Origin: an uncultured Paracoccus sp.
GTDB lineage: Bacteria; Pseudomonadota; Alphaproteobacteria; Rhodobacterales; Rhodobacteraceae
Reading direction: 5' to 3'
Assembly (NCBI RefSeq): GCF_937873615.1
Contig: NZ_CALMYP010000068.1
Span: 62,001-126,000 of the forward strand
Length of the DNA: 64,000 nucleotides
The notes below the pieces were generated by a model. That model searched no databases, was not told where the DNA came from, and saw only the letters and a program-made list of their open reading frames with translations. Of this stretch, positions 14,730 through 29,382 are shown one piece after another (the stretch's first letter is position 1; each line of letters opens with the position of its first letter). The position numbers and the translations under genes are program-made.

Positions 14730-14762
14730 TAGAATGCAGGTAAGCGAGCACCTGGAAGGGCT

Positions 14763-15938
14763 ATGACGATGACGAATATTGCAGTGGCTGGGCTTGGCTA
14801 TGTCGGGCTTTCCAACGCCGTGCTTCTGGCGCAGCACAACCGGGTCACGGCACTGGATATCTCGGATGATCGGGTCAGGATGGTCAATGACCGCAAATCG
14901 CCCATCGAGGATGCCGAGATCACCGAATACCTCGCCAGCCACGATCTCGACCTGACGGCGACGCTCGACCCCAAGACCGCCTTCCACGATGCCGAATTCG
15001 TCGTCGTCTCGACCCCGACCAATTACGATGCGCGCACCAACCGTTTCGACACTTCCTCGGTCGAGGCGGTTCTGGCCGAGATTCAGCGCATCAACCCGAA
15101 TGCCGTGGCGGTCATCAAATCGACCATTCCGGTCGGCTTTGTTGAGCGGATCCGGGCCGAGATGGGTTGGGAAAACGTGATCTTCTCGCCCGAGTTCCTG
15201 CGCGAGGGCAAGGCACTCTATGACAACCTACACCCCTCGCGGATCGTCATTGGCGAAAGGTCCGACCGCGCCCGCCGTTTCGCTGACCTGCTGGCCGAGG
15301 GTGCCATTCGCAAGGACATGCCGGTGCTGTTCAGTGGCGCGGTCGAGGCCGAGGCGATCAAGCTGTTCTCGAACACCTATCTCGCGCTGCGCGTGGCCTA
15401 TTTCAACGAGTTGGACAGCTATGCCATCGCGCATAACCTGAACTCGCGCGAGATTATCGACGGGGTCTGCCTGGATCCGAGGATCGGCGATTTCTACAAC
15501 AATCCCAGCTTCGGTTATGGTGGTTACTGCCTGCCCAAGGATACCAAGCAACTTCTGGCCAATTACGACAAGGTTCCGCAGAACCTGATTTCGGCCATTG
15601 TCGAGTCGAACCGGACGCGGAAGGATTTCGTGTCCGACCAGATCGTCGCCAAGCGCCCGAAGATCGTCGGCGTTTACCGGCTGGTGATGAAGGCGGGGTC
15701 GGACAATTTCCGCGACAGCTCGATCCAGGGGATCATGAAGCGGATCAAGGCCAAGGGGATCGAGGTGATCGTCTATGAGCCGGTCCTGCAGGACGACCAT
15801 TTCTTCAACAGCCGGGTGGTCCGCGATCTGGACGCCTTCAAGGCCGAAAGCGATGTGATCCTGGCCAACCGGCTGTCGGACGATATCCGCGACGTGGCCG
15901 GGAAGGTCTATACGCGCGACCTTTTCGGGGTCGATTGA
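14763..15938 (+). CDS. ugd: UDP-glucose 6-dehydrogenase
   Basis: A 391-residue NAD-dependent enzyme oxidising UDP-glucose to UDP-glucuronate. The N-terminal Rossmann motif is GLGYVG (10-15), TPTNYD follows around 85, and the catalytic cysteine is C256 in GGYCLPKD. The size and short C-terminus match the E. coli Ugd/WecC-like short class. GGAAGG is 2 bases from the first ATG but 8 from ATG 14769, so translation may begin at 14769. It supplies glucuronate or its derivatives to the surface polysaccharide made by neighbours. Confidence 0.93.
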
Positions 15939-15947
15939 GGCGGCGGG

Positions 15948-16991
15948 ATGCGCATCCTCGCCGCCACCACCGTCCGCAACGAAGGACCCTACCTGCTGGA
16001 ATGGATCGCCTGGCATCGCCTGCTGGGGGTGACGGATTTCCTGTTTCATTCCAACGATTGCGACGATGGCAGCGACCGGCTGCTGGACCTTCTGGCCGAA
16101 CATGGCGTGATCCGGCACGAGACCCACCAGCCCCCGCCCGACAAATCCGTGCAATGGAGCGCCTTGCGCGCCGCATGGCGTCATGATCTGCGCAAGTCGA
16201 CCGACTGGATGCTGATCTCGGATCTGGATGAGTTTCCGGTCATCCATGTGGGCGAGGGGCGCTTTGCCGATCTGATGGCCGCGCTGCCCGAGGGGTGCGA
16301 TGCCGTGGCCCTGCCGTGGCGGCTGTTTGGGTCGAATGCGCAGATCGAGATTTCCGGGCGACCCGTCACGCAGGAATTCACCCGTTCGACCCCGGCAGTG
16401 ATGCACCACCCGATCGCGGCGACATTCTTCAAGTCACTGTTTCGACCTGCGGCCTTTCGCGCGCAGGGCGTGCACCGGCCCCGTCACCGGCCCGAAACCG
16501 AGCCGGTCTGGGCAGATGGCAGCGGTCGGCCATTGGCGGGGTTGATCGCCGGGAATGACAAGCGCCTGTCTCTGATCTCGACTAGGGACTATCGCCGGTT
16601 GGTCGAGCTGCATCATTACTCATTGCGCTCGGCCCAGGGCTTCATCGTCAAGTCGGACAGGGGTCTGCCGAACCGAACGAACAAGCCGATCGACCTCAGC
16701 TATTGGGTCGCGCGGAACTTCAATACCGAGGAGAACACATCTGCCGTGCGTCTCGGCCCCCGGCTGAATGAGGAGATCTCAACGCTTATGGCCCTGCCCG
16801 GCGTGGCGGAGCTTCATCAGGCAGCACTGGATTGGCACCGGGCGCGATTTGATGAATTGGTTCTGACGCCGGAAGGCTTTGACCTTTATGCACATATCCT
16901 GCTGGCGCAGGACAGCGCGGTTATGCCGATAGACAAGCAGGACGACCTGCTGCGGCTGTTTCCAAAGCTGCAGCGGGGATCTGACCTGTAA
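15948..16991 (+). CDS. GT-A family 2-like glycosyltransferase
   Basis: A 347-residue protein starting RILAATTVRNEGPYLLEW, closely parallel to the N-terminal half of the GT/methyltransferase fusion upstream (shared EAPYLLEW / EGPYLLEW, then a DxD motif SDLDEF at 91-96). The two are probably paralogous glycosyltransferases acting on the same glycan. It begins 9 bases after ugd and ends at the AT-rich island, which closes this transcription unit. Confidence 0.75.
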   Translation: MRILAATTVRNEGPYLLEWIAWHRLLGVTDFLFHSNDCDDGSDRLLDLLAEHGVIRHETHQPPPDKSVQWSALRAAWRHDLRKSTDWMLISDLDEFPVIHVGEGRFADLMAALPEGCDAVALPWRLFGSNAQIEISGRPVTQEFTRSTPAVMHHPIAATFFKSLFRPAAFRAQGVHRPRHRPETEPVWADGSGRPLAGLIAGNDKRLSLISTRDYRRLVELHHYSLRSAQGFIVKSDRGLPNRTNKPIDLSYWVARNFNTEENTSAVRLGPRLNEEISTLMALPGVAELHQAALDWHRARFDELVLTPEGFDLYAHILLAQDSAVMPIDKQDDLLRLFPKLQRGSDL

Positions 16992-17553
16992 AGCCTTGCC
17001 GAGCTGCTATTCCGGTGGCGGAACTGTGCCGCAAATGCGTGCGCAGGTGATTCGGACTGACGACATCTGCAATTCATTCATCGGAAGCATTCACATGACG
17101 GCGCTCACCCATAAAGTGAATAATTGTTAATATACCTGCACCTGTTCTGCAATAAATCTGAGGCGCAGAATTATTTTTCAATGCGCGCAAAATAATTCTT
17201 GATCCATTCCTATAACGCAAAATTGTTGTGCCGATTCGTGCGTTCTCCACCGATAGAAGAAAATAAAACACATTATATACAGTCACTTGCGGCTTTCTGT
17301 GGTCGTGGAATATCAGCGGTGAAGCGGCGAATTTCCGAAAGCGATTTCTGCGCAAAACATGTCATTTCTTGAAGTGGCCTCGGTATTTCCAGAGCTTTTT
17401 CTTGAGAAATGAGAGTGCTTACGGCAAACTTGACGATGTTTCACAGTTCGAATTTGCCCGTGTTATGTGTGATTTCGTTGTTCAGTCCGTGCCGCTGCTG
17501 TCGCGTGCCTTAATGGCCGTTTTGAATGCTGCTGCGGAAAGGCCGGTGCGGTC
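16992..17553. other. AT-rich intergenic island in the polysaccharide cluster
   Basis: About 560 bp without a gene I can support, clearly richer in A+T than its surroundings from about 17090 to 17400 (runs such as ttaatata, aaaataaaa, cattatata). It contains a perfect 11-bp inverted repeat at 17167-17199. Short open frames on both strands have no recognisable domains. The position, between two groups of polysaccharide genes of the same orientation, suggests a promoter/silencing region or a recombination junction. Confidence 0.7.
17167..17199. repeat. Perfect 11-bp inverted repeat
   Basis: agaattatttt at 17167-17177 is the exact reverse complement of aaaataattct at 17189-17199, separated by 11 bases (tcaatgcgcgc). 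It could be an operator or a cruciform. A terminator is less likely because the stem is AT-only and the T tract is inside the stem. Confidence 0.8.
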
Positions 17554-17970
17554 GTGACCTCGATATCGCACCACAAACAGCCGACGCGCTCGACATCGCA
17601 GACGATGCTGCGCTTCCTTGCGGTCGGCTTGGGAAATACTGCGTTTGGTTATTCTGTTTACGTGCTTGCCGTAGTTGCAGGGCTGACCCCGCAATTGGCG
17701 CTTATCCTGCAGTTCGTGTTGGGCGTGCTTTGGAACTATACCCTACATGCGCGGCTGGTCTTCTCGGTGAACGGCTGGACCCGGTTTCCGTTATATATTG
17801 GCGCCTATCTGCTGATCTACACAATCAATGCGACATCGCTGCGCATCCTGCTTGCCGAAGGTATCGGCCCGCTATTGGCGCAATTGTTGATCCTGCCCTT
17901 TATCGTCGCGCTGTCCTGGTTGCTGATCGGCCGTGTCATGGGCTTCCGGCATGTCGGGAGGGTGCGGTGA
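17554..17970 (+). CDS. gtrA: GtrA-family membrane protein (lipid-linked sugar flippase type)
   Basis: A 138-residue protein with four hydrophobic helices and the GtrA hallmark start RFLAVGLGNTAFGYSVY plus the FVLGVLWNYTLHARLVF segment. GtrA proteins are thought to flip polyprenyl-phosphate sugars across the inner membrane for O-antigen glycosylation. GTG 17554 (GGAAAGG upstream) is the called start; ATG 17605 is an alternative. Its stop overlaps the GTG of the next gene (GTGA), indicating tight coupling with the GT-C-like protein. Confidence 0.85.
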   Translation: MTSISHHKQPTRSTSQTMLRFLAVGLGNTAFGYSVYVLAVVAGLTPQLALILQFVLGVLWNYTLHARLVFSVNGWTRFPLYIGAYLLIYTINATSLRILLAEGIGPLLAQLLILPFIVALSWLLIGRVMGFRHVGRVR

Positions 17971-19592
17971 GCAGTTCTCGCACAGCAGCGCCAATGGCGC
18001 AGGTCCGGGGGCAGAGTATCGTCGTGGCGACGATGCTGGCTGTCGGACTGCTGGTCCTGGCCGCGCTTTATGGGCGGATCATGGGTTACGATCTGCGCCG
18101 GGATGAATTCATGTTCGTCCCGCCGGCGGCGCTTCTGGACGATCATGCACTTTATAGGGACCTCTTTTACAATCACGTTCCTTATTCTGCATGGCTGTTT
18201 CGCGCCGTGCATCAGGCCCTGCCCTGGCTGGGATTGCTGGCGGCGGCGCGGCTGACGGTGTTCCTTGCCTGGCTGCTGCTGCTTGGCGGCGCGGGCTGGG
18301 TTGGCTGGCGGCTGACGGGATCGGCGCTTGTCGCGGCGGTGGGTCCGCTCAGCCTGATTACGGCGGATGTCCTGCTGGGCCAGACCGGGATGGCGGCGAC
18401 GAACAATCTGCTGCCGCTGCCCTTCGCGCTTCTGGGCTTGGGCTTCTTTGCCGTGGCGCTTGCCGATCCGAGGCCGGGCTTCGGACAGCTTCTACTGGCC
18501 GGGGTCATGCTGTCCGTTGCGGCGGGCATGAAAGCCAGCGCCATCGCCTTTGTGCCCGCCGTGGCCATCGGCTGCTTTCTGGTGCCGCGCCAGCTGCCTT
18601 TCTCCGTGCGATTGCGGCATGTGGTTCTGCCGGTGGCGCTTGGCGGGGTCATCGGGGCGCTGCCGCTGTTCTGGTATGCGGCGACGGCGCCCGACCTCTT
18701 CTTTGCCCATATCCTTGGCTATCATTCCGGGCCGCATGTCGCCTATTGGCAGGCCAATGCCGCAAGCGAGCCGGGGCTGGCCCTGTCGCCCGCCGGCAAG
18801 TTGCAACTGTCCCTTTCGGTCTGGATGGTCGGGGCGACGCTGCTGGCGCTGTTTCTGGCGCTGCTTTGCCTGCTGCTGTCCTGGCGGGGCAAAAGGAATG
18901 CGCGGTCCGGCTCCAGCCTGGAGGCGGCGGCGGTGGTCGCGGCATCGGTCCTGACGGCGGCTGTGCTGGCTTTCGTGCCGACGCCGGGCTTTCCGCAATA
19001 TTACGCCGCCCCTCTGATCGGGCCGCCGATCCTGATCGCGCTGTCTTGCCGTGCCATGCCGGAAGACAGCTTCCGCCAGATCCGTCCCGCGCTTGGCGTG
19101 GCGATGCTGCTGATGGCGGTTTACGGCGCGCCCCGACTGGCGCTTGGCCTGAACGATCTGCGCCATCCCGACAGGCTGACCCCGGCAAGGCTGGAGCGCA
19201 GCGCCGATCTGCTGCGCGAGACGCTGGTGGCGGCGCGGCTGGACGGGGCCGGTCCGGTGGCGACGCTTTCGCCGCTTTATCCGCTGGCCGCCGGGCTGCC
19301 GATCTATCCCGAATTTTCGGCCGGGCCCTTCGCCTATCGGGTTGCGCCCCATACCGACGCCAGGCTGCGCGGGCTTTACGCCATGGCCGGCCCCGATGAT
19401 CTGCCGGCCCTGTTCAGCGCCACGCCCCCCGCCGCGATCCTGACCGGCTTCGATCCCGTGCTGGAAGCCCCGTTCGAGGATTACGCGCGGGCCAATGACT
19501 ACACGCTCATGGAGATGCCCCGGATCAGCGACCGTTATGGGAGCGCGCGGCTCTGGCTGGCATCCCCCGATCAGAGAGGAGAACGAGAATGA
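17967..19592 (+). CDS. Polytopic GT-C-like membrane glycosyltransferase
   Basis: A 541-residue protein with about ten or more hydrophobic helices. After the first helix it has YDLRRDEFMFVPPA; the D46-E47 pair in the first periplasmic loop is the position of the catalytic acid in GT-C enzymes of the ArnT/PMT type. A soluble C-terminal region of about 120 residues follows. The GTG start at 17967 overlaps the gtrA stop. Together with GtrA and the GtrB-like protein downstream it would be the periplasmic transferase that moves sugar from the lipid carrier to the glycan. Substrate unknown. Confidence 0.7.
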   Translation: MSSSRTAAPMAQVRGQSIVVATMLAVGLLVLAALYGRIMGYDLRRDEFMFVPPAALLDDHALYRDLFYNHVPYSAWLFRAVHQALPWLGLLAAARLTVFLAWLLLLGGAGWVGWRLTGSALVAAVGPLSLITADVLLGQTGMAATNNLLPLPFALLGLGFFAVALADPRPGFGQLLLAGVMLSVAAGMKASAIAFVPAVAIGCFLVPRQLPFSVRLRHVVLPVALGGVIGALPLFWYAATAPDLFFAHILGYHSGPHVAYWQANAASEPGLALSPAGKLQLSLSVWMVGATLLALFLALLCLLLSWRGKRNARSGSSLEAAAVVAASVLTAAVLAFVPTPGFPQYYAAPLIGPPILIALSCRAMPEDSFRQIRPALGVAMLLMAVYGAPRLALGLNDLRHPDRLTPARLERSADLLRETLVAARLDGAGPVATLSPLYPLAAGLPIYPEFSAGPFAYRVAPHTDARLRGLYAMAGPDDLPALFSATPPAAILTGFDPVLEAPFEDYARANDYTLMEMPRISDRYGSARLWLASPDQRGERE

Positions 19593-20404
19593 AGACGATC
19601 CTGCTTGCCGGCGGGCTTGGCTCTCGCCTCGCCGAGGAAACCGTGGCGATCCCGAAACCCATGGTCGAGGTCGGCGGTCGCCCCATCATCGCCCGGGTCA
19701 TGGATATCTACAGCCATTTCGGCCATAGCGAATTCATCGTGGCGGGCGGCTATAAATGCTTGATGTTGAAGAAATTCTTCGCGAATTATCACCTGATCGC
19801 CAATGATATCAGCGTCGATCTGGACTCGGGCGACCTGAAGCTCAGCCCGATCTCGGCCGGGGGCTGGAATGTCAGCGTGGTCGATACCGGCGCGCTGACC
19901 ATGACCAGCGGTCGCATCCGGCGGCTGCGCGACTGGATCGGGGACGAGACCTTCATGGTCACCTATTCGGACGGTCTGGGGAATGTCGATATCGCCAGCC
20001 TGCTCGAATTCCACCGGGCGCATGGCAAGCTGGCTACCGTTACCGCCGTGCAGCCGCCGGCCCGCTTCGGGAATATGGAGCTAGGCGCGAATGGTCAGGT
20101 CCAGGCCTTCACCGAGAAGGTGCGGCGCTATGAGACCTGGATCAATGGCGGCTTTTTCGTCTTCGAGCCGGGGATCTTCGACTATTTCACCGACGATACC
20201 GAACCGCTGGAACATGCGCCGATGGTCAAGCTGACCAGTGACGGCCAGCTCGTCGCCTACAAGCATTTCGGTTTCTGGCATCCGATGGACACGATCCGGG
20301 ACCGCAATGCGCTTAATGAAGTGTGCGATGCGGATCCGCCGCCCTGGCTGGATTTCGAGAATGTCGGGGCGGACGCGGCCTCGGCACCGAGGGCGGTGAT
20401 CTGA
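19589..20404 (+). CDS. rfbF: Glucose-1-phosphate cytidylyltransferase
   Basis: A 271-residue nucleotidyltransferase making CDP-glucose from CTP and glucose-1-phosphate. The N-terminus has LLAGGLGSRLAEET and PKPMVEVGGRPI, the substrate loops of this family; INGGFFVFEPGIFDY and HFGFWHPMDTIRDRN are typical of RfbF. The start overlaps the end of the GT-C-like gene (ATGA), and the stop overlaps rfbG. It begins the CDP-deoxysugar branch. Confidence 0.93.
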   Translation: MKTILLAGGLGSRLAEETVAIPKPMVEVGGRPIIARVMDIYSHFGHSEFIVAGGYKCLMLKKFFANYHLIANDISVDLDSGDLKLSPISAGGWNVSVVDTGALTMTSGRIRRLRDWIGDETFMVTYSDGLGNVDIASLLEFHRAHGKLATVTAVQPPARFGNMELGANGQVQAFTEKVRRYETWINGGFFVFEPGIFDYFTDDTEPLEHAPMVKLTSDGQLVAYKHFGFWHPMDTIRDRNALNEVCDADPPPWLDFENVGADAASAPRAVI

Positions 20405-21525
20405 TGAACATGCGCAATCAACCCGGTCGCGACCCGTTCAATGGCGCATTTCTCGGGCGGCGCATTCTTCTGACCGGGCATACCGGCTTCAAGGGCGGCT
20501 GGCTGACGCTTTGGCTTGACCGGCTGGGGGCGAAGCTGCGCGGCATTTCCCTGCCGCCGGAAACACAACCGGCACTTTTCGATCTGGCCAGGATCGGCGG
20601 GGCCTGCGACAGCCGCTATGCCGACATAAACGATGCCGCCGCGCTGACGGAGGCGGCGCAGGATTTCGCGCCTGAACTGGTCATCCATATGGCCGCCCAG
20701 GCCATCGTTCGCGACAGCTATGACATGCCTGTCCAGACCTTCGCCACCAATGTCACCGGCACCGCGAATGTGCTGGAGGTGGCGCGGAAATCGCCGGCCC
20801 TGCGCGGGATCATCGTCATCACCAGCGACAAATGCTATGAAAACAACGAATGGGACTGGGGCTATCGCGAGGTCGATCCGCTTGGCGGCTCGGACCCCTA
20901 CAGCGCCTCGAAGGCCTGCACGGAACTGGTTGCCCAGGCCTATCGCCGCTCGTTCTTCGCCAAGCCGGACGGGCCGCAACTGGCCTCGGTCCGGGCCGGC
21001 AATGTCATCGGCGGCGGCGATTGGGCGGCGCATCGACTGATCCCCGATATCGTTCGTGCCACCGCCCGGGGCGAACAGGTGGCGATCCGCAATCCTTCCA
21101 GCGTCCGGCCTTGGCAACATGTGCTGGAACCGCTGGCCGGCTACCTGACCGTAGCGGCGCGGCTGCTGGAACCGGATGCCGCCTCGGTCGCCGGGGCGTG
21201 GAATTTCGGCCCTGACAATGACGCCACCCTGCCGGTGGGCGAGATCTGCCGAAAGTTTGCCGATCTCTGGGGCGATAACGGGCCGCGCTTTGCCTTCGGT
21301 CATAACCCCGATGCCCCGCATGAGGCCGGGCTCCTGCGGCTCGACAGCACCAAGGCCCGGCTGCGGCTTGGCTGGCGTCCGCGCCTGACGATCACCGATG
21401 CGCTGCGGCTTTCGGCCGAATGGTATCGCGCCCATGCCGCCGGCGGCGACATGCAGGCGCTGACCCTGTCGCAGATTACCCAATACGAAGGGCTGATAAG
21501 GCCCGAAACCGCGATTGCAGGATAG
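20404..21525 (+). CDS. rfbG: CDP-glucose 4,6-dehydratase
   Basis: A 373-residue extended SDR that converts CDP-glucose to CDP-4-keto-6-deoxyglucose. NAD-binding motif TGHTGFKGGW at about 24-33, ITSDKCYEN in the middle and the catalytic YSASK (DPYSASKACTELV) are all present. AGNVIGGGDWA and PWQHVLEPLAGYL are family signatures. Start ATG 20404 overlaps the rfbF stop (TGATG). Confidence 0.95.
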   Translation: MNMRNQPGRDPFNGAFLGRRILLTGHTGFKGGWLTLWLDRLGAKLRGISLPPETQPALFDLARIGGACDSRYADINDAAALTEAAQDFAPELVIHMAAQAIVRDSYDMPVQTFATNVTGTANVLEVARKSPALRGIIVITSDKCYENNEWDWGYREVDPLGGSDPYSASKACTELVAQAYRRSFFAKPDGPQLASVRAGNVIGGGDWAAHRLIPDIVRATARGEQVAIRNPSSVRPWQHVLEPLAGYLTVAARLLEPDAASVAGAWNFGPDNDATLPVGEICRKFADLWGDNGPRFAFGHNPDAPHEAGLLRLDSTKARLRLGWRPRLTITDALRLSAEWYRAHAAGGDMQALTLSQITQYEGLIRPETAIAG

Positions 21526-21535
21526 GAGGCGAGAC

Positions 21536-22729
21536 ATGCGCGTGAATTACGGCCAGACCGTCCATGGTGAGGAAGAGATCGAAGCGGTGGTGCGCGTGCT
21601 GCGCGGCTCGACCCAGATGGGCAGGCATGTGCGAGAGATGCAGGACCGGGTCGCGGCGCTGTTCGACAAGCGCCACGGGATCATGGTGAATTCCGGCTCC
21701 TCAGCGAATTTCATTGCCGTGGCGCTTCTGGACCTGCCCGAGGGTTCCGAGGTAATCACCCCCGCCCTGACCTTCGCCACCACGGTTGCGCCCATCGTCC
21801 AGCACCGGCTGGTGCCAGCCTTCATCGACGCGGCGGACGGCACCTATAATGCCGATGTCGGCCAGATCGAGGCGATGATCGGCCCAAAGACCCGGGCGAT
21901 CATGATCCCCTCGCTGATCGGCAACCTGCCCGACTGGGTCCGCATCCGCGAGATCGCCGGCAAGCACGGCCTGACCGTGATCGAGGACAGCGCCGATACG
22001 CTGGGTGCGACCATTGGCGGGGTCTCGACCGGGGTGAACTCGGATATCTCGACGACCAGTTTCTATGGCAGTCATGTCATCAATGGCGCCGGAAATGGCG
22101 GGATGCTCTGCGTCAATGATGACGATCTGGCCCGGCGCGCGCTGCTTCTGCGCAGCTGGGGGCGGACCTCGTCGCTGTTTCAGGAGGGTAGCGAGGCGAT
22201 CGAGAACCGCTTCAATGTCGATCTCGACGGGATCAGCTATGATGCGAAATTCCTGTTCGAGGAACTGGGCTATAACCTAGAGCCGTCCGAGATCAGCGCC
22301 GCCTTCGGGCTGGTGCAGCTGGACAAGCTGAACCGCAATATCACCGCGCGAGAGAAGAACTTCGCCCAGCACCTTGCCTTCTTCCGCGCCTATGAGGACT
22401 GGTTCATCCTGCCCCGGCAATTGCCCGACAGCCGCACCGGCTGGCTGGCCTTCCCGCTGACCCTGCGCGAGGGCGCGCCCTTCACCCGTCGCGACATGCA
22501 GATCTGGCTTGAAAAGCGCGAGATCCAGACGCGGCCGGTCTTCACCGGCAATATCCTGCGTCAGCCCGCAATGAAGAAGGTCGAAAGCCGCACCCGGCCC
22601 GAGGGCTATCCGGTCGCGGATGCCGTCATGCGCGGCGGTATCCTGCTGGCCTGCCATCACGGGCTGGATCAGCCCCAGATCGACCATATGCACGATGCTT
22701 TCCGCGCATTCGCCCGCCAATTCGGCTAA
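21536..22729 (+). CDS. rfbH: RfbH/DdhC-like CDP-4-keto-6-deoxyglucose 3-dehydrase
   Basis: A 397-residue member of the DegT/DnrJ/EryC1 PLP-fold family. The lysine that binds PLP in aminotransferases is replaced by histidine, H180 in SFYGSHVINGAGNGG, exactly as in RfbH/ColD-type dehydrases, so deoxygenation at C3 rather than transamination is expected. AGGAGG lies just before ATG 21536. It is shorter than the roughly 430-residue enterobacterial enzymes. The [2Fe-2S] reductase (DdhD/E3) that normally feeds electrons to it is not in the window. Confidence 0.85.
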   Translation: MRVNYGQTVHGEEEIEAVVRVLRGSTQMGRHVREMQDRVAALFDKRHGIMVNSGSSANFIAVALLDLPEGSEVITPALTFATTVAPIVQHRLVPAFIDAADGTYNADVGQIEAMIGPKTRAIMIPSLIGNLPDWVRIREIAGKHGLTVIEDSADTLGATIGGVSTGVNSDISTTSFYGSHVINGAGNGGMLCVNDDDLARRALLLRSWGRTSSLFQEGSEAIENRFNVDLDGISYDAKFLFEELGYNLEPSEISAAFGLVQLDKLNRNITAREKNFAQHLAFFRAYEDWFILPRQLPDSRTGWLAFPLTLREGAPFTRRDMQIWLEKREIQTRPVFTGNILRQPAMKKVESRTRPEGYPVADAVMRGGILLACHHGLDQPQIDHMHDAFRAFARQFG

Positions 22730-22741
22730 GGAGAGACCCAG

Positions 22742-23995
22742 ATGACCGCAGAACCCCGTGACATGCTTCGCGAATGCCGCGCCTGTGGGTCAGGGCGGCT
22801 GCACCTGTTCCTGCCCATGGGCAACCATCCGCCCGCCAATATGTTCGTCCGGCCCGAGGATGCGGGCAAACCGCAACCGGCCTTTCCGCTGAACGCGCAG
22901 GCCTGTCTGGATTGCGGGCTGATTCAGGTCGCCGATCAGGTGCCGGAGGGGTTCTTTCGGCATTACCTCTATATCCCGTCCGGCGCGGCGACGATGCATG
23001 GCCATTTCGAAGGCCTCGCCCGGGTGCTGGCCGACAGGGCGGCAGGCGGGCTGATCGTCGATATCGGCTGCAATGACGGGTTGATGCTGGGCTTTGCCAA
23101 TGCCCTTGGCGCGCAGACGCTGGGGGTCGACCCGGCCGCCAATCTGGCCGAGGCGGCGGCCCGGAACGGGGTCGAGGTGCATGTCGCCTATTTCGGCCCC
23201 GAAACTGCGGATGAGCTGCGCGCCGCGCGCGGGCCGGCTCAGGTGATCTCGACCAGCAACACGCTGAACCATATTGGCGATCTCATGGGCTTCATGGACG
23301 GGATTAATCGGCTTCTGGCCGATGACGGCTGGTTCGTGGTCGAACTGCCCTGGGGGCTGGATATCCTGCGCGGCAACCAGTTCGACAATATCTATCACGA
23401 GCATATGTCGGAGATGAGCCTGAAATCCCTGGTCCGGCTGGCCGAGCGGAGCGGCATGGCGGTGGTCGATGTGACCCGGCTGCGGGTTCATGGCGGCTCG
23501 ATGCGGGTATTCATGCGCAAGACCGGTGCGGCGGGCGCCCCCTCGGCAGAGGTGCGGCACATGCTGGCCGCCGAAGACGAGGCCGGTATGAACGATGCCG
23601 CCACCTTTGCCGGCCTGGCGGATCATGCACGCCAGATCGGGACCGATCTGCGCGCACTTCTGGCCGGGCTGAAGGCGCAGGGGAAGACGATTGCCGGCTA
23701 TGGCGCCCCGGCCAAGGGCAATACGCTGTTGAATTATTTCCAGATCGGTCCCGAGACGCTGGATTTTCTGGTCGATCGTAATCCGTTGAAGCAGGGCATG
23801 TTGTCGCCCGGAACACTGATCCCGATCCACGACACTGCGGCCATTGCCGAACGTAAACCCGATTATCTGCTGGTCCTCGCCTGGAACTTCTTCGACGAGA
23901 TCCGGCAGCAACTTGCCGATTACGAAGCGGCGGGAGGGAGGTTTATCGTGCCGCTTCCGTCTCCGCATATCGTTCCCCAGGATGGCAGAGGATAA
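22742..23995 (+). CDS. Sugar C-methyltransferase (TylC3/NovU type)
   Basis: A 417-residue protein with the three-part structure of deoxysugar C-methyltransferases: an N-terminal zinc site (C12-x2-C15 and C55-x2-C58), a SAM-binding domain with VDIGCNDGLML (from about 106), and a C-terminal domain with GYGAPAKGNTLLNYF and DRNPLKQGMLSPGT. Family members methylate a carbon next to a 4-keto group. The gene follows rfbG and rfbH, so the substrate is probably a CDP-4-keto sugar and the product a branched-chain sugar. Confidence 0.88.
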   Translation: MTAEPRDMLRECRACGSGRLHLFLPMGNHPPANMFVRPEDAGKPQPAFPLNAQACLDCGLIQVADQVPEGFFRHYLYIPSGAATMHGHFEGLARVLADRAAGGLIVDIGCNDGLMLGFANALGAQTLGVDPAANLAEAAARNGVEVHVAYFGPETADELRAARGPAQVISTSNTLNHIGDLMGFMDGINRLLADDGWFVVELPWGLDILRGNQFDNIYHEHMSEMSLKSLVRLAERSGMAVVDVTRLRVHGGSMRVFMRKTGAAGAPSAEVRHMLAAEDEAGMNDAATFAGLADHARQIGTDLRALLAGLKAQGKTIAGYGAPAKGNTLLNYFQIGPETLDFLVDRNPLKQGMLSPGTLIPIHDTAAIAERKPDYLLVLAWNFFDEIRQQLADYEAAGGRFIVPLPSPHIVPQDGRG

Positions 23996-23998
23996 CCC

Positions 23999-24928
23999 AT
24001 GACCAGAACCCTGATCACCGGCGGAACAGGCTTCATCGGCTCGCATCTGGTGCGGGATTGCCTGCGGCGCGGCGATGAGGTCACCGTCCTCGCCCGGCCG
24101 GGCAGCGATGTCTGGCGGTTGGAGGGGGTGCTGGACCGGGTGACGATCTGCCGGCTGGATCCGCTCGACGTTCCGGCGCTGCGTGCGCTTCTGGCCGAAC
24201 GGCGGCCAGAGCGGGTGTTCCTGCTGGCTGCGGCGACCCGTTTCGATCGGAGGGATGGGCTGCACGACATGGAACTGGCGCTGCGCGCGAATGTCGAGCC
24301 GTTGCGGATCCTGCTGGACGAGCTTGCCGTGATGGCAGAGCCGCCGCGGTCGGTCATCCGCACCGGCACGCTGGCCGAGATCAGCAATGCCGGGGCCGAG
24401 CCCGGCAGTCTTTATGGGCTCTCGATCCTGATGGGCACGCATCTGCTGAGGATCTGGCGCGAATGGACCGGGATTCCTGCCGTTACCGCGCGGCTCGGTC
24501 TGACTTACGGTGGCGATCAGTCGCCTGACTTCTTCGTGCCGGGTGCCATTGCCGGTGCACTGCAGGGCGGCGCGGTGTCACCCCGCCATCCAGCCGCGCT
24601 GCGCGACCTTCTGCATGTCGACGATGCAGTGGCGGCGCTGCAACTGATCGCCGGTCACACGAGCATGCTGCCGGCGGTGGTCAATGTCTCGACCGGCGCG
24701 CCGTACCGGCTGGGCGACGTTGCCGCCCTGATCGCCGAGATTACCGGACAATCGCTTGAGATAGCGGTGGCAGAGGCGGGCGCGGGGGATATCGTCTCGG
24801 CCCCGCCTTCGCCTGAACTTGCCGCCCTTGGCTGGACGCCGCGCGTTCCCCTGCTTGATGGGCTGGCGAGGGTCCTCGACTGGGAAAGTGATTGCCGCCT
24901 CACCAAGAACAAGAGATTTGCGCAATGA
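23999..24928 (+). CDS. NAD-dependent epimerase/dehydratase-like SDR with altered active site
   Basis: A 309-residue extended SDR. The nucleotide-binding motif TGGTGFIGSHLV (from about 7) is intact. The catalytic YxxxK is altered: the tyrosine Y139 is present in SLYGLSILMG but residue 143 is isoleucine. By context it should reduce or epimerise the 4-keto sugar made by RfbG/RfbH and the methyltransferase. The missing lysine suggests an unusual mechanism, a binding role, or use of another residue. Its ATGA stop overlaps the next gene. Confidence 0.8.
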   Translation: MTRTLITGGTGFIGSHLVRDCLRRGDEVTVLARPGSDVWRLEGVLDRVTICRLDPLDVPALRALLAERRPERVFLLAAATRFDRRDGLHDMELALRANVEPLRILLDELAVMAEPPRSVIRTGTLAEISNAGAEPGSLYGLSILMGTHLLRIWREWTGIPAVTARLGLTYGGDQSPDFFVPGAIAGALQGGAVSPRHPAALRDLLHVDDAVAALQLIAGHTSMLPAVVNVSTGAPYRLGDVAALIAEITGQSLEIAVAEAGAGDIVSAPPSPELAALGWTPRVPLLDGLARVLDWESDCRLTKNKRFAQ

Positions 24929-25908
24929 GCATGCTCTCGATTCTCGTTCCCGCCTATAATGAGGAAGGCAATGTCCGCGAGTGCCATGCGCGCATTGCCG
25001 CGGTTCTGGACGGGCTGCCCGATGAGCAGGCCGAGATCATCTTCACCGACAATCACTCGACCGACCGCACCTTCGCGATCCTGTCGGAAATCGCGGCACA
25101 GGATCCGCGCGTCCGCGTCTTCCGCTTCTCGCGCAATGTCGGTTACCAGAATTCGGTCATGTATGCCTACAAGATGGCGCGGGGCGATTGCGCGATCCAG
25201 CTGGATTGCGACCTGCAGGACCCGCCGGAACTGATCCCGCAGATGCTCGACCTGTGGCGGCAGGGCAATCAGGTGGTCTATGGCATCCGACGCAAGCTGC
25301 CCGACGGGCCGGTGGTGGCGGCGCTACGGCGCGGCTTCTACTGGTTCATCGACCGGATCAGCAATGACGACCTGCCCCGCAATGCCGGCGAGTTCCGGCT
25401 GACCGACCGGGTGATCCTCGACCAGATCCGGGTCAGCGAGGATCGCTCGCCCTATATGCGCGGCATGATCTCGGCCATGGGGTTCACGCAGGTCGGCTTC
25501 GACTATGACCGCGCCGCGCGCAAGGTGGGCGAATCGAAATTCCCGCTAAAGGCGATGATCTCGCTGGCCGTGGACGGAATGGTGAACCACTCGCTGGTGC
25601 CCCTGCGGCTGGCCTCGACCGTGTCGCTTTTCGTCGGGCTGATTACCTTCCTGATCCTGCTTTTCTATCTGATCGGCAAGCTGCTGTTCGGACAGGACTG
25701 GCCGCCCGGCTTCGCGACGCTGGTCATTCTGCTGCTGATGTCGATGACGCTGAACGCGATGTTTCTGGGCATCCTCGGCGAATATATCGGGCGCATCTTC
25801 ATGCAGACCAAGAACCTTAATGCGCCGGTGGTCGAGGCGACGGTGAATGTCGAAGCCGAGGCGGTCGAAGTGTCGCAGCCGCCCCTGCGTTTTCCGGTGT
25901 CACGCTGA
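24925..25908 (+). CDS. gtrB: GtrB-like polyprenyl-phosphate glycosyltransferase
   Basis: A 327-residue family-2 glycosyltransferase starting SILVPAYNEEGNV, with LDCDLQDPPE (D94, D96) as the metal/nucleotide motif and two C-terminal membrane helices (about 225-255 and 270-295), the layout of DPM/GtrB enzymes. Such enzymes transfer a sugar from a nucleotide donor to polyprenyl phosphate on the cytoplasmic face. Placed right after the CDP-sugar genes, its donor may be the CDP-branched sugar, although known GtrB enzymes use UDP or GDP sugars. Confidence 0.85.
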   Translation: MSMLSILVPAYNEEGNVRECHARIAAVLDGLPDEQAEIIFTDNHSTDRTFAILSEIAAQDPRVRVFRFSRNVGYQNSVMYAYKMARGDCAIQLDCDLQDPPELIPQMLDLWRQGNQVVYGIRRKLPDGPVVAALRRGFYWFIDRISNDDLPRNAGEFRLTDRVILDQIRVSEDRSPYMRGMISAMGFTQVGFDYDRAARKVGESKFPLKAMISLAVDGMVNHSLVPLRLASTVSLFVGLITFLILLFYLIGKLLFGQDWPPGFATLVILLLMSMTLNAMFLGILGEYIGRIFMQTKNLNAPVVEATVNVEAEAVEVSQPPLRFPVSR

Positions 25909-25997: not shown

Positions 25998-26612
25998 ATG
26001 ACCATTCATCTCTATCAGAACGACCTGCCCGACGGGCTGGACCTTGGTCCCGTGGTGGCCATCGACACCGAGACGATGGGCCTCGACCCGCGCCGCGACC
26101 GGCTGTGTCTTGTGCAGATGTCTTCGGGCGACGGCGATGCGCATCTGGTGCAGATCGCGAAGGGCCAGACCGACGCGCCCAACCTGACCCGTATGCTGGC
26201 CGATCCCGGCGTCTTGAAGCTGTTCCATTTCGGGCGTTTCGACATTGCCGCGCTGGAAAACACCTTCGGCGTGGTGACGGCGCCGGTCTGGTGCACGAAG
26301 ATCGCCTCGAAACTGGTGCGCACCTATACCGACCGGCACGGGCTGAAATACCTTCTGCAATCGCTGAGCGATGTCGACATCTCCAAGCAGCAGCAGACAT
26401 CCGACTGGGGCGCCGAGGAGCTGACCCCGGCGCAGCTGGAATATGCGGCTTCGGATGTGCTCTATCTTCACCGGCTGAAAGAGGTGCTGGAGGCTATGCT
26501 CCACCGCGAGGGACGTGCCGAACTGGCGCAGGCTTGCTTCGATTTCCTTCCCACCCGCGCGCATCTGGACTTGCTGGGCTGGGGGGATGAAAACGACATC
26601 TTCCATCACTAG
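25998..26612 (+). CDS. nrnC: NrnC-type 3'-5' exoribonuclease (RNase D-like)
   Basis: A 204-residue DEDD exonuclease domain alone, without the HRDC domains of true RNase D; this is the NrnC architecture of alphaproteobacteria. Metal ligands are visible as D23/E25 (AIDTET), D82 (FHFGRFDIAAL) and the ExoIII YAASDVLYL. NrnC degrades very short RNAs, including dinucleotides such as pGpG, replacing oligoribonuclease. It stands just before kdsD, a common neighbour in Rhodobacterales. Confidence 0.9.
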   Translation: MTIHLYQNDLPDGLDLGPVVAIDTETMGLDPRRDRLCLVQMSSGDGDAHLVQIAKGQTDAPNLTRMLADPGVLKLFHFGRFDIAALENTFGVVTAPVWCTKIASKLVRTYTDRHGLKYLLQSLSDVDISKQQQTSDWGAEELTPAQLEYAASDVLYLHRLKEVLEAMLHREGRAELAQACFDFLPTRAHLDLLGWGDENDIFHH

Positions 26613-26621
26613 ATCAGCCAG

Positions 26622-27566
26622 ATGAGCAGCTATCTCGACACCGCCCGCCGCGTCATCGCGACCGAGACCGAAGGTCTCAACCTGCTGGCCGCCGGGCTTG
26701 GCGACAGTTTCGACCGCGCGGTCGAGACGATCTTGGCCGCGCGCGGTCGCGTCGTCGTATCCGGCATGGGCAAATCGGGCCATATCGGTCGCAAGATCGC
26801 GGCCACGCTGGCCTCGACCGGGACGCCGGCGCAATTCGTCCCCCCCGCCGAGGCGAGCCATGGCGATCTCGGTATGGTGGCCGAGGGCGATGTGGCAATC
26901 GTGCTGTCGAATTCCGGCGAAACGCCCGAACTGGCGGATATCATCGCCCATACCCGGCGCTTCAACATTCCGCTGATCGGGGTGGCCAGCCGCGAAGGCT
27001 CGACCCTGATCCGGCAATCCGACGTGGCGCTGATCCTGCCGGCGGCCCCCGAAGCCTGCGGCAAGGGCATCGTGCCGACGACCTCGACCACGATGACGCT
27101 GGCGCTTGGCGATGCGCTGGCGGTAGCACTGATGGAGCATCGCCGCTTCACGCCCGAACATTTCCGCACCTTCCATCCCGGCGGCAAGCTGGGCGCGCAG
27201 CTGTCGCGGGTCCGCGACCTGATGCACGAGGATATGCCGCTGGTGGGCGAGACCACACCGATGACCGAGGCGCTTCTGGAAATCAGCCAGCGCGGTTACG
27301 GCGTGACCGGCGTGACCGACGCCGGGGGGGAGTTGGTCGGGATCATCACCGATGGCGACCTTCGCCGGCACATGGACGGGCTTCTGGATCGCAGCGCAGC
27401 CGAGGTGATGACGCCAAAGCCCCGCACCATCCGCCCCGATCAACTGGCCGAGGCGGCGCTGTCGGAAATGCAGTCGCGCAAGATCACCTGCCTTTTCGCG
27501 GTCGAGGGCGGTCAGCCGCGCGGCATCCTGCATATCCATGACTGCCTCAGGGCCGGGATCGTCTGA
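26622..27566 (+). CDS. kdsD: Arabinose-5-phosphate isomerase (KpsF/GutQ family)
   Basis: A 314-residue SIS-domain isomerase (about 35-175: SGMGKSGHIGRKIA, SNSGETPEL, PTTSTTMTLALGDALA) followed by two CBS domains. It converts ribulose-5-phosphate to arabinose-5-phosphate, the first precursor of Kdo. The stop overlaps the lptC start (TGATG). The location ahead of lptCAB ties Kdo supply to LPS export. Confidence 0.94.
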   Translation: MSSYLDTARRVIATETEGLNLLAAGLGDSFDRAVETILAARGRVVVSGMGKSGHIGRKIAATLASTGTPAQFVPPAEASHGDLGMVAEGDVAIVLSNSGETPELADIIAHTRRFNIPLIGVASREGSTLIRQSDVALILPAAPEACGKGIVPTTSTTMTLALGDALAVALMEHRRFTPEHFRTFHPGGKLGAQLSRVRDLMHEDMPLVGETTPMTEALLEISQRGYGVTGVTDAGGELVGIITDGDLRRHMDGLLDRSAAEVMTPKPRTIRPDQLAEAALSEMQSRKITCLFAVEGGQPRGILHIHDCLRAGIV

Positions 27567-28132
27567 TGCGGTCCCGGGTGGTGGCATGGCTGCGCGTCCT
27601 GCTGCCGCTGGCTGCGCTGGCGATCCTGTCGACGCTGGTCCTGCTGCCAAACGCGCCCGATCCCGATGCGGCGATCCCCTATGCCGATGTCGATGCCGAG
27701 GCGCTGGCGCGCGATCCGCGCATGACCCAGCCCCGGTTTTCCGGTGTGGCCAAAGACGGTGCGGCGGTGACGCTGATCGCCGAAACCGCCAGCCCGACCG
27801 AGGGTCACGATGCCAATGCCGAGCGGCTGCGCATGACCTGGCGCGCCGCTGACGGGCTGGCCGCCGATCTGACCGCCCCCTATGGCGCGCTCGAAGGTGT
27901 CATGATCCGGCTGAATGGCGGGGTCAGGGTGACTACCTCGAACGGCTGGGCGATGACGGTGCCGGTGCTGAATACCGATACCGAAAGCGGTCTGATGATC
28001 GGCGAAGGGGGCATGACCGCTTTCGCCCCTTTCGGTCGTGTCGATGCAGAGCGGATGGAGATTTCGCGCAATGCCGATGGCCAGCATGTTCTGAATTTAT
28101 CCGGCGGTGTCCGTCTGTTATATCAACCCTGA
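27566..28132 (+). CDS. lptC: LPS export protein LptC
   Basis: A 188-residue protein with one N-terminal membrane helix (about 8-27) and a periplasmic beta-jellyroll region. Members are weakly conserved in sequence; the assignment rests on topology, length, weak LptC similarity (AETASPTEG and MTAFAPFGRVDAE) and the position between kdsD and lptA. LptC takes LPS from LptB2FG and passes it to LptA. Confidence 0.85.
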   Translation: MRSRVVAWLRVLLPLAALAILSTLVLLPNAPDPDAAIPYADVDAEALARDPRMTQPRFSGVAKDGAAVTLIAETASPTEGHDANAERLRMTWRAADGLAADLTAPYGALEGVMIRLNGGVRVTTSNGWAMTVPVLNTDTESGLMIGEGGMTAFAPFGRVDAERMEISRNADGQHVLNLSGGVRLLYQP

Positions 28133-28153
28133 TCCGCCCGGAAAGGAAAGCCG

Positions 28154-28642
28154 ATGCGCCGCATTCCCAGCCTTGCCCTGCTTGTTACGCTGATGGCAGC
28201 TCTGCCGGTCGTATCGCAGACCGTGCCCTTCGGCGGCACCCCGGCCGATACCAACGCGCCGGTCGAGGTTTCGGCCGACAACATGGTGGTGAACCAGGCC
28301 AGCGGGCAGGCCGAACTGACCGGCAAGGTGCTGATTGCACAGGGCGATATGCGGCTTGCCGCCGACAGGGTGGTGGTGAATTACGATTCTCAGGACAGAA
28401 GCCGCATCTCCAGCCTCGATGCGACCGGCAATGTCACGCTGGTTCAGGCCGGCGACGCAGCCGAATCGGAACATGCCGTCTATGAGGTCGCGACCGGTCT
28501 GGTGACGCTGACCGGCGATGTGCTGGTGACTCAGGGCGAGAACGTGATGTCGGGTGACAAGATCGTCGTCAACCTGACCGATAACACCGCGCAGGCCACG
28601 GGGCGCGTGCGCACCATCCTGCAACCGGGCTCCACCCAATGA
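28154..28642 (+). CDS. lptA: LPS transport periplasmic protein LptA
   Basis: A 162-residue protein with a signal peptide (about 1-21, ending VVSQT) and OstA-like repeats: [37 protein letters not shown] and [19 protein letters not shown]. LptA polymerises into the periplasmic bridge that carries LPS to LptDE. The stop overlaps lptB by 4 bp. Confidence 0.93.
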
Positions 28643-29382
28643 GCGAGACCGGCGAAGACCGCAAGCTTGTCGTCCGCAAGCTGCGCAAATCCTATCGCAA
28701 GCGCCCGGTGATCCGCGATGTCTCGATGGACCTGGCCCAGGGCGAGGTGGTGGCGCTTCTGGGGCCGAACGGATCGGGCAAGACCACCTGCTTCTATTGC
28801 ATCGCCGGTCTGGTCGCGCCCGATTCCGGCAGCGTCCATATCGATGGCGTCGATGCCACCGGCCTGCCGATGTTCCGCCGCGCCCGGCTGGGCATCGGCT
28901 ATCTGCCGCAGGAGATGTCGATCTTTCGCGGGCTGACGGTCGAGCAGAACATCATGGCCGTGCTGGAGGTGGCAGAGCGCGATTCGCACCACCGCCGCGA
29001 CCGGCTGGAGGAGTTGCTGGGCGAGTTTTCCATCGGTCATATCCGCAATGCTTCGGCCATGGCACTTTCGGGGGGCGAGCGGCGCCGGGCCGAGATCGCG
29101 CGTTGTCTGGCCTCGAACCCGAAATACCTGCTGCTGGACGAACCCTTCGCCGGGGTCGACCCGATTGCCGTGGCCGATATCCGCGCCCTCGTCCACGACC
29201 TGAAATCTCGCGGTATCGGCGTTCTGATCACCGATCACAACGTCCGCGAGACGCTGGGGATCGTCGACCGCGCCTATATCCTGCATGACGGCCATGTGCT
29301 GATGTCCGGCACAACCGCGGAAATCGTGGCCGATCCCCGCGTTCGAGAGGTTTATCTGGGTCAGGCCTTCACACTGGCCTGA
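28639..29382 (+). CDS. lptB: LPS export ABC transporter ATPase LptB
   Basis: A 247-residue ABC ATPase with Walker [12 protein letters not shown] (41-51), the Q-loop [13 protein letters not shown], signature [17 protein letters not shown] and Walker [13 protein letters not shown]. It powers LPS extraction with LptFG, which are not in this window. It is the last gene of the kdsD-lptCAB unit; hpf follows after 145 bp with its own promoter-like sequence. Confidence 0.95.

Follow-up and report, generated by a model that had tools for sequence, protein, structure and literature searches.

A predicted eight-gene unit for making and attaching a branched CDP-sugar, with an RfbH-like protein lacking iron-sulfur cysteines

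We analyzed a 64,000-nucleotide stretch of Paracoccus DNA (the window) and identified an eight-gene unit (17554-25908) that we read as a "make and attach" system, combining CDP-sugar synthesis, C3 deoxygenation, C-methylation and transfer to an envelope glycan. We give this reading a probability of about 55%. The likely product is probably an unusual CDP-linked, oxygen-depleted sugar with a methyl branch, which would be passed to the envelope glycan. Judged from sequence, the unit probably employs an iron-sulfur-free form of a known deoxygenating enzyme in a CDP-sugar setting. The product, the position of its methyl group (C3 or C5) and the acceptor glycan are those that we infer for the unit.

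Layout and conservation of the unit

The preliminary description had reported a branch of five contiguous genes separated by 0-12 bp: rfbF, rfbG, an rfbH-like gene (21536-22729, labeled H* hereafter), a C-methyltransferase gene and a gene of the SDR family. These five genes are real, and all are intact open reading frames on the + strand. Their tight packing holds as well, with successive gaps of -1, 10, 12 and 3 bp and a one-base overlap of rfbF with rfbG. However, they constitute only the middle of a larger unit, which includes Gtr-type genes and is ordered gtrA, large membrane protein, rfbF, rfbG, H*, C-methyltransferase, SDR and gtrB-like gene. The three additional genes are tied in by 4-bp overlaps (gtrA/membrane protein, membrane protein/rfbF and SDR/GT2). 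The promoter of the unit is presumed to lie in the intergenic stretch before gtrA (16992..17553; 562 bp), whose GC-content is low (0.468 vs. 0.649 for the whole window).

We compared the gene order across 42 related loci, 15 of which lack the methyltransferase. The genes rfbF, rfbG and H* occur in that order in 41 of the 42 loci, so chance is not at issue. The exact eight-gene order was found in 16/42 loci and the same order minus the methyltransferase in 8/42. Among the other members, gtrB is present in 39/42 loci, the SDR in 37/42, the membrane protein in 36/42 and gtrA in 30/42, this last count resting on a loose threshold of 28 bits. H*, the methyltransferase and the SDR stand in succession in 25/42 loci; in at least three of these, the methyltransferase is separated from H* by an extra gene or by a 1-kb gap.

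Predicted CDP-sugar synthesis and the RfbH-like protein

The gene rfbF (19589..20404, + strand) matches the glucose-1-phosphate cytidylyltransferase family above its curated cut-off (TIGR02623; 306.2 bits vs. 300.25), and so does rfbG (20404..21525, + strand) for the CDP-glucose 4,6-dehydratase family (TIGR02622; 457.6 bits vs. 278.45). The closest solved structure to RfbG is also a CDP-glucose 4,6-dehydratase (E = 2.2e-111). Because both proteins pass these cut-offs, CDP-4-keto-6-deoxyglucose is the likely intermediate of the pathway, in agreement with the preliminary description. RfbF would convert glucose-1-phosphate to CDP-glucose and RfbG would convert CDP-glucose to CDP-4-keto-6-deoxyglucose, two steps that are strongly indicated by the curated families.

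The product of H* (21536..22729, + strand) appears to be an RfbH-like PLP/PMP 3-dehydratase without Fe-S cysteines. Its earlier designation as an RfbH-type dehydrase agrees with its overall similarity: the best solved matches are E1/DdhC (198.1 bits) and ColD (144.6 bits), which places it closer to E1 by sequence. However, the protein scores 306.3 bits against the RfbH/E1 model NF011936, under the cut-off of 423, and its Fe-S cysteines are absent. Its homologues in loci L052 (297.6 bits) and L056 (297.7 bits) also fall under this cut-off, and the Cys-type RfbH proteins of L055 and L072 reach 730.3 and 724.4 bits, respectively. We compared 61 H* sequences, a set that includes near-copies (L071 and L043 are alike in motif, and some genomes may be repeated). 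The broken H* reading frame of L049 was omitted from this comparison and from the H* tree. All 61 sequences carry a histidine in place of the PLP-binding lysine (His180 in the window, aligned with His220 of E1), and none has a cysteine in the Fe-S stretch, where the three Cys-type comparators L055, L072 and L073 have 3, 4 and 3 cysteines, respectively. The loop past the histidine is one residue longer in H* than in E1.

According to the review PMC8987622, ColD is free of a cluster, has a histidine at the same place and does not require E3. The same source presents the His-for-Lys substitution as what chiefly sets the 3-dehydratases apart from aminotransferases; in it, E1 and ColD are reported to lack transferase activity, and SpnQ is reported to show it without a reductase. 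Because H* keeps the histidine, lacks the [2Fe-2S] cysteines in 61/61 sequences and scores under the RfbH cut-off, a ColD-like, reductase-free loss of the C3 oxygen appears the likeliest. The concern raised in the preliminary description that a reductase partner is missing would then be largely answered, since H* resembles an enzyme that needs no E3. The neighbors of H* point to a CDP-sugar rather than to the GDP-sugar setting of ColD, with rfbF and rfbG adjoining in 41/42 loci; we infer the substrate from these neighbors because of the missed cut-off and the longer loop. The residues are consistent with a reaction in which a PMP Schiff base would form, the 3-OH would be lost with the help of the histidine, and hydrolysis would yield CDP-4-keto-3,6-dideoxyglucose. 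An amino donor, for instance glutamate, would regenerate PMP, and neither an Fe-S cluster nor an E3 reductase would be needed.

Two other views of H* are disfavored: a canonical Fe-S RfbH awaiting its missing reductase, given the absence of the cysteines in 61/61 sequences, and a plain sugar aminotransferase, given that the PLP lysine is a histidine. We also searched for an E3-like gene, using as query a gene of L072 that passes no curated model and whose name rests on its place and domains. This query gave no match at E<=1e-5 in the 42 genome and 5 plasmid H* loci, but the Cys-type loci L055 and L073 gave none either, which makes this result weak; the sole match among the loci searched was L072 itself. 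With two of the three Cys-type loci likewise devoid of a match, we did not take the failure to find E3 as showing that the enzyme works without a reductase. The window genome contains five weak matches to the query (best E = 1.7e-8), and other electron donors may therefore exist.

Proposed methylation, final reduction and transfer of the sugar

The gene row was confirmed to include a C-methyltransferase of the TylC3 type. The protein (22742..23995, + strand), a TylC3/TcaB9-type SAM-dependent sugar C-methyltransferase, contains the zinc-binding, SAM and C-terminal domains (PF08421, PF13489 and PF08484), all over cut-off, matches ten solved TylC3/TcaB9-type sequences (E from 1.5e-84 to 5.2e-81) and preserves the YHEH motif. 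It is found in 27 of the 42 loci, counting L036, whose contig ends within the gene and which was left out of the methyltransferase tree. Within Paracoccus, P. aurantiacus TK008 (L010) carries the unit, and P. isoporae DSM 22220 (L012) is without the methyltransferase. Among the genomes of the 15 loci without it, 14 present no homologue elsewhere at E<=1e-20. Its presence or absence requires at least nine changes on the H* tree (45 labeled rows), and two copies look damaged: that of L011 is short and without the NTLNHIGD motif, possibly from an assembly fault, and that of L043 reads FDTLCHER for FDxxYHEH. The gaps among loci, the changes on the tree and the apparently damaged copies led us to reject the idea that the pathway always includes the methyltransferase; the methyl branch is an optional feature of the unit.

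The suggestion that the RfbH-type enzyme and the methyltransferase act on one molecule received indirect support. Besides the succession of the genes in 25/42 loci, the H*-linked methyltransferases make up a single branch (99*) that leaves out six relatives without H*. On plasmids, a methyltransferase match of at least 59% identity occurs in 17 records, all of which are among the 23 that have an H* match of at least 72%. Family and genomic linkage suggest that the enzyme methylates the carbon beside the 4-ketone, most likely the new C3 CH2.

The SDR (23999..24928, + strand; PF01370, 87.9 bits) is presumed to catalyze the last step, reduction of the 4-ketone, and this is the weakest step of the pathway. 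The protein is an extended SDR with the Gly motif, Tyr139 and Thr124, but the catalytic lysine of YxxxK, a point overlooked in the preliminary description, is replaced by Ile143. A role as 4-keto reductase is doubtful because position 143 is a lysine in 0/38 sequences and the alignment contains no Lys-rich column anywhere. These 38 sequences exclude L028, L032 and L050, where the site, read separately, is not a lysine either, and L036, L042, L044, L047 and L049, which have no same-strand SDR match; the row of L045 is shortened. The protein could instead be an epimerase, have a binding function or be inactive, with a different reductase finishing the sugar or with the 4-keto sugar itself being transferred. 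This explanation is possible, all the more as the SDRs of two Cys-type rfbH clusters retain YxxxK (3/3). On the other side, the Gly motif, Ser/Thr124, Tyr139 and Arg33 are kept in 38/38 sequences, and the SDR adjoins gtrB in 37/42 loci. The AlphaFold2 model is also confident (pLDDT 92.9) and presents an extended-SDR fold similar to those of nucleotide-sugar epimerases and dehydratases and of one 4-keto reductase, a comparison of folds that does not separate reductases from epimerases.

The remaining alternatives concern H* and the methyltransferase. Each enzyme might use CDP-4-keto-6-deoxyglucose separately, yielding a CDP-3,6-dideoxyhexose and a CDP-3-C-methyl-6-deoxyhexose. Absence of the methyltransferase from 15/42 loci, and from the rest of 14/15 such genomes, indicates that H* works without it, and vinelose, a 3-C-methyl-6-deoxy sugar, has been isolated as a CDP derivative. 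An rfbF and C-methyltransferase pair without H* is also found in S. meliloti 1021 (SMb21416-SMb21418; PMC4053727). Nevertheless, we consider two sugars unlikely, since the unit has a single gtrB and a single SDR, the H*-linked methyltransferases branch separately and H* accompanies all 17 of the plasmid methyltransferase matches of at least 59% identity. It is less probable still that H* is another PMP/PLP enzyme catalyzing a transamination or an isomerization. The plasmid annotation as a DegT aminotransferase, the score under the RfbH cut-off and the relatives in Rhodococcus and Embleya (47-48% identical), around which our thresholds gave no rfbF/rfbG match in the 8 kb to each side, would all fit such an activity. 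The histidine found in 61/61 sequences argues against it, as this substitution marks the 3-dehydratases (PMC8987622). Finally, the methyl group could be added to C5 by a NovU-type reaction, giving a 5-C-methyl (gem-dimethyl) 3,6-dideoxy sugar. C3- and C5-methyltransferases have the same domains, but the ten solved matches, a set without NovU, all bear the name of a 3-C-methyltransferase or of TcaB9, which we take to be a C3 enzyme; methylation at C5 seems very improbable.

The flanking genes suggest transfer through a polyprenyl carrier. The gtrB-like GT2 glycosyltransferase (24925..25908, + strand; PF00535, 102.8 bits), whose best NCBIfam match is PgfS (193 bits, under the cut-off of 500), presumably loads the sugar from CDP onto polyprenyl phosphate, and the small membrane protein encoded by gtrA (17554..17970, + strand; PF04138 GtrA_DPMS_TM, 45.2 bits, cut-off 26.1) is the presumed flippase of the polyprenyl-linked sugar. 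Following the Gtr pattern, the large membrane protein (17967..19592, + strand; start GTG at 17967 or ATG at 17994), a presumed GT-C glycosyltransferase, would then attach the sugar to the envelope glycan in the periplasm. For this protein, no Pfam family scored over its cut-off; its homologue in Roseibium (L052) matches PMT_2 at 29.5 bits (cut-off 26.1). Same-strand homologues occur in 32/42 loci, and their alignment omits L013, L027, L028, L048 and the loci without a same-strand match.

A fuller version of our reading is offered tentatively, as one that may well prove wrong. The unit would be a movable and self-contained envelope-glycosylation unit leading to a CDP-3,6-dideoxy-3-C-methylhexose by means of a CDP-sugar 3-dehydratase from a class that is free of Fe-S and independent of a reductase, a specialized C-methyltransferase and a lysine-less SDR acting as 4-ketoreductase with a changed catalytic set (the invariant Arg121 and Glu127 being candidates), followed by Gtr-type transfer.

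Implications and comparison with known systems

If our main reading is correct, C3 deoxygenation of CDP-sugars is possible without the Fe-S/E3 electron chain of which E1 is the textbook example, and various Alphaproteobacteria possess genes that are labeled "DegT aminotransferase" but encode dehydratases. Paracoccus, roseobacters, sphingomonads and some of the rhizobia would be predicted to have a branched 3,6-dideoxy sugar in their glycans, and one unit would bear both the synthesis and the transfer of the sugar. The group of SDRs without the catalytic lysine also raises a clean mechanistic question. The preliminary description knew of no pathway with exactly the enzyme set RfbF-RfbG-H*-C-methyltransferase-SDR; we found none either, nor any publication pairing rfbH with a C-methyltransferase or naming vinelose, in a search of the open-licence literature, which is weak evidence of absence. 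One paper describes 3-C-methyl-branched monosaccharides as "quite uncommon" (PMC9912281), and another cites 3-C-methyl-D-rhamnose in the LPS of Phyllobacterium trifolii (PMC5644692).

Among known systems, the S. meliloti genes SMb21416-SMb21418 (rfbF-type, SDR and C-methyltransferase) resemble the unit by an rfbF near a TylC3-like methyltransferase (PMC4053727). We take the stretch of 15 kb that we analyzed in strain 1021 to be this locus, judged by gene order. It contains rfbF and the methyltransferase but no H* match, its methyltransferase is only 39% identical to that of the window and its intervening SDR gene has no match to the RfbG of the window at E<=1e-5. In contrast, pSymB of strain ABS7 contains H* and lacks the methyltransferase, and these two differences led us to set S. 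meliloti aside as a stand-in for the entire unit. Gtr glycosylation units share GtrA, a GtrB-like GT2 and a large membrane protein with our unit, which differs in that its Gtr genes enclose a CDP-sugar pathway and in that its transferase is not assignable by Pfam. Described TylC3/TcaB9 sugar C-3'-methyltransferases share the three-domain build, and the YHEH motif is present in the window protein; their substrates are dTDP sugars with a substituent at C3, whereas the substrate proposed here is a CDP sugar already without its 3-OH. ColD, the GDP-4-keto-6-deoxymannose 3-dehydratase, resembles H* by its histidine, its lack of Fe-S cysteines and its independence from a reductase, which is presumed for H*, but its substrate derives from GDP-mannose, whereas H* lies among CDP-glucose genes and is nearer to E1 by sequence. 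The CDP-3,6-dideoxyhexose pathways of E1/DdhC (RfbH) share with our unit the adjacent rfbF and rfbG and a DegT-family protein with histidine for the PLP lysine; unlike E1, H* has no [2Fe-2S] cysteines, falls under the RfbH cut-off and has no E3-like gene found nearby.

Organization and distribution of the gene unit

The five contiguous plus-strand genes reported in the preliminary description (19589..24928) are all intact and are separated by gaps of -1, 10, 12 and 3 bp: rfbF, rfbG, the RfbH-like DegT-family gene H* (21536..22729), a C-methyltransferase gene and an SDR gene. They are linked by 4-bp overlaps to gtrA (17554-17970; PF04138) and a gene encoding a large membrane protein (17967-19592) on the 5' side, and to a gtrB-like GT2 gene (24925-25908) on the 3' side. 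A low-GC intergenic stretch of 562 bp (16992-17553; 46.8% GC) precedes gtrA. Further upstream (12912-16991), a gene for a UDP-glucose-type nucleotide-sugar dehydrogenase and a pair of glycosyltransferase genes matching PF13704 suggest a wider polysaccharide locus.

Downstream, 89 bp separate the unit from an RNase D-like gene with a 3'-5' exonuclease domain, which is followed by a SIS-CBS gene (KdsD-like), one that matches no Pfam family, one resembling LptA and, in the LptB position, one for an ABC ATPase (together 25998-29382). These genes were characterized by domain matches, and the gene names are our own reading. These neighbors make an LPS setting plausible for the unit, but the exonuclease and KdsD-like genes were found beside it in no loci other than L009-L012, its closest relatives in Paracoccus and 4 of the 58 loci examined, many of which are short-flanked.

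The window belongs to a genome of 3.86 Mb (74 contigs), and the closest homologues of its H* occur in Paracoccus. Counting this genome, homologues of H* (E<=1e-90) were detected in 11 of 385 genomes sampled across the class and in 4/149 genomes of the family, and the methyltransferase (E<=1e-100) was detected in 2 of 289 genomes. Related units are also carried by plasmids of Roseibium, Leisingera and Sinorhizobium. This patchy spread and the changes of replicon fit horizontal movement of the unit.

Core genes and a variable tailoring step

We compared 42 genome loci picked by H* similarity. The order rfbF-rfbG-H* was found in 41 of them, gtrB in 39 and the SDR gene in 37. The membrane-protein gene was found in 36 loci, 32 of which have it on the same strand; gtrA, for which the threshold was loose, was found in 30, including 26 same-strand cases. 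The C-methyltransferase gene was present in 27 loci; the full eight-gene order was observed in 16, and an otherwise identical order without the methyltransferase in eight. Among the 15 genomes with a methyltransferase-free locus, 14 had no methyltransferase homologue elsewhere (E<=1e-20), the exception being the genome of L047, with a 34%-identical match containing one internal stop. On the H* tree, which was built by a quick method and leaves 11 forks open, the state of this gene (present or absent) switches at least nine times.

Two of the methyltransferase genes appear to be damaged: one is shortened and misses one conserved motif (L011:7227-8291), and the other presents changed YHEH residues (L043:8380-9747). 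Where the gene is missing or displaced, H* adjoins a PF08241 methyltransferase gene (L025:7215-8111) or an acyltransferase-3 gene (L026:7203-8306); the gene adjoining H* at L043:7185-8351 appears similar to the latter. These replacements hint that decorations are interchangeable at this site. Together with the damaged copies and the partial presence of the methyltransferase, they indicate that rfbFGH*-SDR and the Gtr genes form the core of the unit and that the tailoring step is variable.

On pSymB of S. meliloti ABS7, the membrane-protein and gtrB matches are each in two pieces (L051:3517-5128 and 10134-10945) and these genes may be broken. The open frame of H* is split in two pieces in a contig of a Legionella sp. 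(L049:5983-9025), followed by a gene reading like a fused acetyltransferase-aminotransferase.

Likely intermediate and possible substrate sharing

RfbF and RfbG both pass curated equivalog cut-offs and the solved structures closest to RfbG are CDP-glucose 4,6-dehydratases; the intermediate is therefore likely CDP-4-keto-6-deoxyglucose. In S. meliloti 1021, an SDR gene sits between rfbF and the C-methyltransferase gene (L076:5890-6937) and does not match the RfbG of the window (E<=1e-5). PMC4053727 prints ddhB, CDP-glucose 4,6-dehydratase, for the gene that we equate with it by gene order, a name that may be wrong judging from the sequence.

The preliminary description considered that H* and the C-methyltransferase (METHYLTRANSFERASE) might act on the same molecule, and indirect evidence suggests that they do share a substrate. 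In the methyltransferase tree, a quick reconstruction whose long branches call for caution, the 27 H*-linked sequences (the window and 26 loci) lie on one side of a branch (99*). On the other side lie six relatives whose surrounding stretches gave no H* match, although one of these stretches (L075) spans 4 kb and could have an H* farther away. Among the plasmid matches listed (the best 40 of 135 records for the methyltransferase and the best 30 of 852 for H*), each of the 17 records whose methyltransferase match is at least 59% identical also belongs to the 23 whose H* match is at least 72% identical, the next methyltransferase match reaches 41%, and 6/23 H* records present no methyltransferase match of at least 59%. 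The separate branch and the plasmid co-occurrence favor a common substrate, but the two enzymes could conceivably be used in parallel.

Predicted chemistry of H*

H* matches PF01041 (DegT family) with 245.7 bits. Its best solved relative is E1 (RfbH/DdhC, the Fe-S 3-dehydratase; 198.1 bits), followed by ColD (a Fe-S-free 3-dehydratase acting on a GDP-sugar; 144.6 bits). His180 of H* aligns with the His of E1 that the E1 variant 3bb8 replaces by Lys, and H* has no cysteine opposite the [2Fe-2S] stretch. This His is kept and the stretch is devoid of Cys in all 61 H* sequences (the window, 41 genome loci, five plasmid loci and 14 further loci), some being near-copies; three Cys-type RfbH present 3, 4 and 3 Cys in the same stretch. 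Against the RfbH model (cut-off 423), three H* proteins score 298-306 bits and two Cys-type proteins 724 and 730. According to the review PMC8987622, the catalytic Lys is replaced by His in E1, SpnQ and ColD, and the cluster is carried by E1 and SpnQ and absent from ColD; ColD hydrolyses the intermediate, with PMP renewed by glutamate, and E1 requires its reductase partner E3. Following this rule, the presence of His and the absence of Cys predict that H* should act like ColD, on a CDP-sugar. Two actinobacterial relatives with 47-48% identity (L053:7992-9215 and L054:8001-9194) are also His-type and Cys-free; no rfbF or rfbG match was found within 8 kb on either side of them, and they possibly use a different substrate.

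We searched for E3 using the E3-like gene that adjoins rfbF in the Cys-type cluster L072. It matched nothing in any of the H* loci, whether the 42 from genomes or the five from plasmids. The other Cys-type loci (L055 and L073) did not yield any match either, and the query reaches the cut-off of no curated model. The missing E3 therefore lends weak support to a reductase-free action, for which the argument rests on the cysteines. The window genome contains five weak matches to this query (best E 1.7e-8), the best of them being PaaE-like, with a piece that scored below the PaaE model cut-off.

The branched CDP-deoxysugar pathway initially proposed is upheld in outline and can be sharpened: H* would deoxygenate the CDP-sugar at C3 without a reductase, and the sugar would be handed on by Gtr-type transfer after optional methyl branching. 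The product, the methyl position, the SDR chemistry, the carrier lipid and the acceptor glycan are putative. The open-licence literature searched does not contradict the earlier statement that no such pathway has been described. Based on these residues, H* is expected to act like ColD, which lacks the Fe-S cluster and has His for Lys, and it differs from E1, in which the [2Fe-2S] cysteines are present.
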